The notes under the pieces are model-generated. The model saw only the letters and a program-made list of their open reading frames with translations. It was not told the DNA's origin and ran no database searches. A stretch of 64,000 nt of DNA, taken from Hyperoplus lanceolatus. Lineage: Eukaryota > Chordata > Actinopteri > Uranoscopiformes > Ammodytidae. Made by a program: the position numbers and the translations under genes. The DNA is taken from the NCBI GenBank assembly GCA_026929865.2, contig CM049414.1, forward strand, positions 7,801,001-7,865,000, in the 5' to 3' direction. Below, piece by piece: positions 33,495 through 35,068 of this stretch. Numbering within the stretch: the stretch's first letter is position 1; the number at the start of each line of letters is the position of its first letter.

Positions 33495-33859
33495 TACAGT
33501 GGCTTGCAAAAGTATTCATACCCCTTGAAATGTTCTACATTTTGTCATGTTACAACCACATACGTACATTTATTTTTTGGGGATTTTATGTGATAGACCA
33601 ACACAAAGTGGCGCATCATTGTGAAGTGGAATGAAAATTAAACATGGTTTTAATTTTTTTTTATAAATATAAAACTGAAAAGTGTGGCGTGCAAAAGTAT
33701 TCAGCCCCCTGAGTCAATGCTTTGTAAAACCACCTATCACTGCCATTACAACTGCAAATCTATTGGAGTATTTCTCTACCAGCTTTGCACATCTAAAGAC
33801 TGATATTTACTGCCCATTCTTCTTTGCAAAATAGCTCGAACTACAGATTCAGGATCAGA

Positions 33860-34310
33860 TTGGATGGAGAGCGTCTGTCAACAGCAATTTAAGTCTTTCT
33901 CAATATTCTCAATTGTTTTTAGGTCTGGACTTTGACTGGACCATTCTAACACATGCGTATGCTTTGATTTAAATCATTTCATTGTAAATCTGGCTGTATG
34001 TTTAGGGTAGTTGTCCTTCTGGAAGGTGAACCTCCACCCAGTCTCAAGTCTTTTGCAGACTCTAACAGGTTTTCTGCCCTGTATTTGGCTCCATCCATCT
34101 TCCCATCAACTCTAACCAGCTTCCCTGTCCCTGCTGAAGAAAAGCATCCCCATAGCATGATGCTGCCACCACCATGTTTCATGGTGGGGATGGTGTGTAT
34201 AGGGTGATGTGCAGTGTTAGTTTTCCACCACACATTGCATTTTGCATTAAGGCCAAAAACCTCAATTTTGATCTCATCTGAACAGAGCACCTTCCTCCAA
34301 CCCAAGCCAT
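33860..34310 (-). pseudogene. Tc1 transposase C-terminal fragment, left arm
   Basis: Read on the minus strand, this arm encodes [10 protein letters not shown] (first catalytic aspartate region), [20 protein letters not shown] and [18 protein letters not shown], the central catalytic core of Tc1-family transposases. A frameshift follows, after which the second aspartate region ([10 protein letters not shown]) is visible in another frame at about 33995-34025. The helix-turn-helix N-terminus is missing and the frame entering from the other arm is antisense. It cannot make an active transposase. Confidence 0.75.
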
Positions 34311-34319
34311 GCATAGTCA

Positions 34320-34870
34320 GATGAGACCAAACATGACGTTTTTGGCCTGAATGCAAAATGCAATGTGTGGCGGAAACACACACTACAAACCCCCCTATAC
34401 ACACCATCACCACAGTGAAACATGGTGGTGGCAACATCATGCTATGGGGATGCTTTTCTTCAGCAGGTACAGGGAAGCTGGTTAGAGTTGATGGGAAGAT
34501 AGATGGAGCCAAATACAGGGCAGAAAACCCGTTAGAGTCTGCAAAAGACTTGAGACTGGGTGGAGGTTCACCTTCCAGAAGGACAACTACCCTAAACATA
34601 CAACCAGATCTACTATGAAATGGGTTTAAATCAAAGCATAGTCATGTGTTAGAATGGCCCAGTCAAAGTCCAGACCTAAAAACAATTGAGAATATTGAGA
34701 AAGACTTGAAAATTGCTGTTGACAGACGCTCTCCATCCAATCTGATGCTGAATCTGTAGTTCGAGCTATTTTGCAAAGAAGAATGGACAAAATATATCAG
34801 TCTGTAGATGTGCAAAGCTGGTAGAGAAATACTCCAATAGATTTGCAGCTGTAATGGCAGCGATAGGTGG
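34320..34870 (+). pseudogene. Tc1 transposase C-terminal fragment, right arm
   Basis: On the plus strand it shows [20 protein letters not shown] and [20 protein letters not shown], then after a frameshift the [13 protein letters not shown] aspartate region and the [19 protein letters not shown] region with the catalytic glutamate at about 34655-34715. It mirrors the left arm and has its own changes (for example N for S in GGGN). The gene is broken by frameshifts and lacks its N-terminal half. Confidence 0.75.
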
Positions 34871-35068
34871 TTCTACAAAGCATTGACTCAGGGGGCTGAA
34901 TACTTTTGCATGCCACACTTTTCAGTTTTTTATTTATAAAAAAAATGTAAAACCACGTTTCATTTTCATTCCACTTAATTTAATTCCACATAAATGTTCG
35001 TATGTGGTTGTAACGTGACAAAATGTGGAACATTTCAAGGGTTATGAATACTTTTGCAAGCAACTGTA

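Follow-up and report, generated by a model that had tools for sequence, protein, structure and literature searches.

A 1.57-kb palindrome with the features of a Sleeping Beauty-type Tc1 transposon in Hyperoplus lanceolatus

Within a 64-kb stretch of Hyperoplus lanceolatus DNA (hereafter the window) we find a 1570-bp inverted repeat at 33497-35066, the arms of which (33497-34281 and 34317-35066) are mutually reverse-complementary. The palindrome is real, and each of its arms ends in the terminus of a Tc1-like transposon and carries a broken copy of the catalytic half of the transposase gene. Judged from its sequence, the element is a non-autonomous derivative of a Tc1-like transposon of the IR/DR, DD34E kind rather than a full member of that group. 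It probably arose when the 3' half of one defective Sleeping Beauty-type element was duplicated in inverted orientation by fold-back.

Geometry and ends of the palindrome

A repeat search, self-BLAST, arm-versus-arm alignment and shuffled controls agree with the first-pass annotation of this DNA, which had described the two arms as near reverse complements separated by a loop of about 35 bp; the loop is exactly 35 nt long (34282-34316). The self-comparison that had been proposed as a check recovered the full-length inverted arms as a single minus-strand self-BLAST match in which 33495-35068 pairs with itself over 1618 columns (87.5% identity when gaps are included; 2006 bits), against a best minus-strand self-match of 31 columns and 43.7 bits in 200 dinucleotide shuffles of 33300-35300. 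The repeat search returned seven inverted pairs, two of which are cross-matches between copies of a 27-nt direct repeat. The other five (I1-I5) form the in-register palindrome and cover 33495-35068 save for a gap-adjacent stretch (33574-33623 versus 34977-34989), with complementarity of 93-95% in four of them and 90% in the pair adjacent to the loop. Aligned to one another, the arms are 92.6% identical over 747 ungapped columns (K2P 0.078), the alignment consisting of 692 matches, 24 transitions, 31 transversions and four gaps. These gaps are private to one arm or the other, with 2 nt and 1 nt absent from the left arm only and 37 nt and 1 nt absent from the right arm only; the 37-nt gap, the largest, falls inside the right arm's terminal repeat and is split into 5 and 32 nt by another alignment.

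The symmetry halts at TA on both sides, and the flanking bases beyond it agree at 16 of 60 positions. This boundary bears on the possibility that the palindrome was produced during sequencing or assembly, by a fold-back read or by the mis-joining of repeat copies. Long inverted repeats are indeed hard to assemble, but fold-back reads are expected to give near-identical arms and to run into the flanks, whereas the arms here have 55 mismatches in 747 columns, bear private indels and cease to be symmetrical at the transposon ends. We consider an artefact of either sort very unlikely, a mis-join of two different repeat copies being less easily excluded than a fold-back read.

Read inward, both ends of the element have the sequence CAGT(G/T)GCTTGCAAAAGTATTC and adjoin TA, such that the Tc1-type termini beside TA noted in the first reading are retained at both positions (Table 1). 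Each arm contains an outer and an inner copy of the 27-nt direct repeat, spaced 185 nt apart in the left arm and 148 nt apart in the right, and this outer/inner layout is that of the IR/DR elements of the Sleeping Beauty group (PMC7827188). The original length of the terminal repeats is not recoverable, as the entire element is now one inverted repeat. In the description of seven salmon Tc1 families, the ends are CAGT and the repeats measure 199-244 bp, and an element length of 1530-1600 bp is given for three of the seven (PMC2198921).

Table 1. Coordinates of the palindrome and its features in the window
Feature	Position	Strand	Source
TA at left end	33495..33496	.	sequence
Left arm: 3' terminal inverted repeat, 3' untranslated stretch, catalytic half of Tc1-like transposase	33497..34281	gene sense -	repeats, alignment, phmmer
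Outer direct repeat, left arm	33499..33525	+	repeat search (D1)
Inner direct repeat, left arm, 89% identical to outer	33684..33710	+	repeat search (D1)
Common stop codon site, left copy	33834..33846	-	translations
Common frame break, left copy (LRLG frame 2, FQKDN frame 1)	34025..34041	-	translations, phmmer pieces
35-nt loop, continuing the left-arm frame upstream of the first catalytic Asp	34282..34316	-	translation
Right arm: sense-oriented catalytic half of transposase, starting at SDE, followed by 3' terminal inverted repeat	34317..35066	+	repeats, alignment, phmmer to 5cr4 (three pieces)
Common frame break, right copy (LRLG frame 2, FQKDN frame 1)	34556..34572	+	translations, phmmer pieces
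Common stop codon site, right copy	34754..34766	+	translations
Inner direct repeat, right arm	34890..34916	-	repeat search (D3)
Outer direct repeat, right arm, 81% identical to inner	35038..35064	-	repeat search (D3)
TA at right end	35067..35068	.	sequence

No other copy of the element was found in the window, either by searching the element against it (E up to 0.01) or by self-BLAST (E up to 1e-6, matches of at least 40 columns). The terminal-repeat pattern had 0 matches in viral contigs, and the arm pattern had 0 in viral and 0 in prokaryotic-genome contigs; four stretches of viral contigs fit the pattern of a transposase piece, of which 0 were confirmed, and a distant blastn search with the element gave no match in phages and plasmids. 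These searches for relatives covered viruses, plasmids and prokaryotes, and their misses are uninformative on fish genomes. The window as a whole gave 0 matches to Rfam at gathering scores and 0 genes with ARAGORN. A literature search with four terminal-repeat stretches returned no paper, and no description of a palindromic Tc1 element in fish was present among the matches listed for the part of the literature covered. The string "palindrom" is absent from the main text of de Boer 2007 (PMC2198921) and likewise from that of Krasnov 2005 (PMC1192797).

Elsewhere in the window is a second repeat family with four copies (17327-18266, 18446-19370, 43758-44480 and 53660-54213), two of which are direct copies with starts 1119 nt apart and 92.6% identity, and two more of which, one inverted, are 81-89% identical. 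The ends of this family read TTAAAGC(G/A)GCTACGAG and, at 18246, TCGTAGTGGCTTTAA, and suggest a non-autonomous DNA transposon with TTAA ends. CA/TG microsatellites are numerous, with five period-2 tracts longer than 70 bp (10082-10155, 24180-24311, 29272-29344, 40653-40742 and 60271-60359), and the strongest GC skew among the 32 2-kb bins is found at 42001-44000 (-0.322; 610 C versus 313 G).

Transposase remnants and the origin of the two arms

Comparison of the translated arms with the catalytic domain of the SB100X transposase (5cr4) by phmmer revealed a match of E 6e-24 for the frame that runs through the left arm and the loop, a weak match of E 0.063 for a second piece of the left arm, and matches of E 1.7e-12, 0.0033 and 8.5e-07 for three pieces of the right arm. 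Read in the sense of the left arm, the gene extends through the loop, whose 14-letter peptide runs into the first catalytic motif; the right arm begins at SDE itself (34317). Both arms then continue via a second Asp (FQKDN) and a Glu (IEN) to the 3' end; by comparison with Sleeping Beauty, we take these Asp, Asp and Glu residues to be the catalytic ones. Between the second Asp and the Glu the left arm has 34 residues, counting one stop, and the right arm has a frame change. The DNA-binding half is missing from the translations of both arms. What had been proposed from the first reading, namely a C-terminal transposase half in each arm and loss of the DNA-binding half, is thus upheld. When six pieces of the palindrome were compared with Pfam, one of the six matched (DDE_3, E 0.041, below its cut-off).

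The palindrome combines TA insertion, CAGT ends, outer and inner direct repeats and a DD34E catalytic domain, as in IR/DR Tc1 elements, with broken frames and with arms whose start coincides with the first catalytic Asp or immediately precedes it, unlike an autonomous element. The ends, the direct repeats and the matches to SB100X also support the first-pass description of a Tc1-like transposon turned into a palindrome. Two other identities were considered and rejected: an element that still encodes transposase, because the frames are broken, and a simple internally deleted copy, because both halves are 3' halves.

The two gene halves share their damage: in each of them a change of frame, from 2 to 1, separates LRLG from FQKDN, and a stop interrupts NL*FELFCKEEW. 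As the frame break and the stop are common to the two arms, both arms most likely derive from one already broken sequence, and the simplest reading is that a single half-gene, already damaged, gave rise to two arms which diverged afterwards. The same common lesions would be expected in a pair of copies from one dead subfamily, or after conversion between the arms. A second common frame change may lie before CAKLVEKY, where we read it in both arms by resemblance; the two pieces downstream of the common stop gave no phmmer match to Sleeping Beauty, leaving this second change unsupported by matching.

The divergence between the arms is unevenly distributed. By alignment column, mismatches were counted at 5 of 77 ungapped positions in columns 0-80, 13 of 46 in columns 80-160 (beside the 37-nt gap), 21 of 477 in columns 160-640 and 16 of 147 in the 148 central columns, so that the outer terminal repeat (5/77) and the gene part (21/477) are alike in identity. 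The loop-adjacent portions of the arms (34134-34281 versus 34317-34463) are more diverged than the arm middle. For centre versus middle, Fisher's test gives p 0.008, in a comparison that was picked after viewing the table and leaves out columns 0-160. Simple even drift does not predict this uneven divergence.

We consider fold-back inverted duplication to be the probable origin of the palindrome. The starting copy would have been a transposon with a transposase gene that already held the frame break and the stop, and a break or stall would have occurred inside this gene, just before the first catalytic Asp. During repair or replication the 3' end would then have folded back, or the template been switched, such that the 3' half was recopied in reverse, and the DNA-binding half and the 5' end gave way to another 3' half that brought a terminal repeat of its own. 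The arms, which we infer to have been identical at birth, would subsequently have diverged by 7-8% and gained their private indels. We favour this origin because the symmetry of the arms misses by only 35 nt, because the arms, the loop, the TA ends, the matches to 5cr4 and the common lesions fit one broken gene, and because the outer terminal repeat and the gene part have like identity. For foldback inversions in yeast with normal Mre11/Sae2, a median loop of about 36 nt is given (PMC7467729), compared with the 35 nt found here, and defective copies of P-superfamily elements are proposed to stem from aborted gap repair or template switching (PMC4168063).

Several observations weaken the case for fold-back. 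The common lesions also fit two copies of a dead subfamily or inter-arm conversion, the arm divergence is uneven, and the second common frame change lacks the support of a match. A further sequence match at the junction (34316/34317) was looked for and none was seen, which is a point against fold-back. No ancestor or sister copy, in which the native gene might show a short stem at the fold point, was seen in the collections of viruses, plasmids and prokaryotes or in the window.

Alternatively, two head-to-head copies of one defective Tc1 subfamily may have been joined when a single deletion took both 5' halves together with the intervening DNA, an origin that we regard as possible but doubtful. 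Fish DNA is dense in transposons, with more than 250 fragments of 14 families described in nearly 3 Mbp of salmonid BAC sequence (PMC2198921), and such copies could have inherited their common lesions from a shared dead ancestor; the uneven divergence of the arms fits two source copies no worse than one. A TA at each outer end is expected under this origin too, and does not separate it from fold-back. The deletion, however, would need to have ended at gene positions no more than 35 nt apart in the two copies, a coincidence of about 7% by our own estimate if breakpoints are even over approximately 1 kb of element, and the searches of the window found no second copy.

Predicted hairpin RNA, possible silencing and possible mobility

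The first reading had also held that any transcript through the element would fold into a long, near-perfect hairpin. Folding of the whole-element RNA predicts a very stable structure for both strands, with minimum free energies of -1207.5 kcal/mol (+ strand) and -1257.3 kcal/mol (- strand) against a mean of -401.5 kcal/mol for 10 shuffles of the + strand, and with uninterrupted helices predicted to reach 72 bp for the + strand and 145 bp for the - strand when G-U pairs are counted. A long hairpin RNA is thus predicted as proposed, while "near-perfect" is generous wording for arms with 55 of 747 columns mismatched in addition to gaps. The stability of the predicted hairpin follows from the palindrome and is not evidence of use. 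Long double-stranded RNA is not known to be a usual silencing trigger in the body cells of vertebrates, which speaks against a silencing role.

By analogy with Mu killer of maize, the palindrome might act as a working silencer, in which a read-through hairpin would yield small RNAs that repress related active Tc1 elements. The likeness lies in the anatomy, since in Mu killer, too, part of a transposase gene is duplicated in inverted orientation and one terminal repeat region is present twice (PMC3440606, PMC1784062), and in the strong hairpin predicted here. Against it, no active relative was seen in the collections of viruses, plasmids and prokaryotes or in the window, and a six-frame scan of 26-41 kb, itself a weak test, found no Pfam domain at E up to 0.001. 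We judge a working silencer of this kind to be highly improbable. The same scan, in which stops were read as X and 0 families were returned, missed the transposase too, and by this weak test the palindrome does not appear to lie in or near a host gene.

As both ends keep their terminal and direct repeats, mobilisation in trans would be possible in principle. Each end, however, seems to be a 3'-type end, so that, judged by Sleeping Beauty, the half-DR enhancer of the left end would be missing; this left-repeat half-DR of Sleeping Beauty is described as a non-essential enhancer (PMC7827188). Most likely, the palindrome now does nothing. That it belongs to an amplified, trans-mobilised subfamily of palindromic Tc1 elements, whose hairpins would feed germline small RNAs against active relatives, we hold to be exceedingly unlikely; were it true, the subfamily would be the mobile vertebrate counterpart of Mu killer. 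Should the junction recur in the genome, it would allow two questions to be tested in nature: whether a cut-and-paste transposon that has a 3' end on both sides can still move, and whether a long vertebrate transposon hairpin is processed to small RNAs. As a single relic, the palindrome would be an ordinary by-product of failed transposon repair, mainly useful as a clean example.

Comparison with known transposons and palindromes

With the Sleeping Beauty-type Tc1 elements of fish and frogs, the palindrome shares CAGT at TA, direct repeats, a catalytic domain that matches SB100X and a length near the 1530-1600 bp given for three salmon families. It differs from them in lacking the DNA-binding half, in ending in a 3' terminus on both sides where they have a left and a right end, and in carrying two broken gene halves in antiparallel orientation.

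That DNA transposons give rise to palindromic derivatives is already established, examples being Made1, the palindromes of C. elegans and Mu killer. For palindromic transposon-related repeats, Dreyfus and Emmons 1991 is cited in PMC3212995. Mu killer belongs to the Mutator superfamily and differs from the element described here in kingdom as well as superfamily. It silences MuDR, proposedly via hairpin RNA (PMC3440606), whereas the likeness here is anatomical: both are partial inverted duplications of a transposase gene that join two copies of one terminal repeat region and would give a long hairpin RNA, proposed for Mu killer (PMC3440606) and predicted in our case, and an inverted duplication of a partly deleted transposon is what is found in the window. 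Palindromic repeats of C. elegans and Anopheles that are related to, or resemble, DNA transposons account for 6 of 32 MITE-like clusters (PMC3212995); they share with our element their palindromic form and their relation to DNA transposons, and differ from it in being repeat families of a nematode and an insect.

Made1, derived from Hsmar1, is a mariner-derived palindromic MITE and the source of hsa-mir-548 (PMC1784062). Like the present element, it belongs to the Tc1/mariner superfamily, has been reduced to a palindrome and would form a hairpin if read through (PMC1784062), and the palindrome of transposon ends typical of it is found here as well. Made1 is 80 bp long, with two 37-bp terminal repeats around 6 bp, and forms a repeat family with a small RNA, whereas the element described here spans 1.57 kb, includes gene sequence and occurs as one copy in the 64-kb window. 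The closest known anatomy is that of Mu killer, and the closest by superfamily is Made1.
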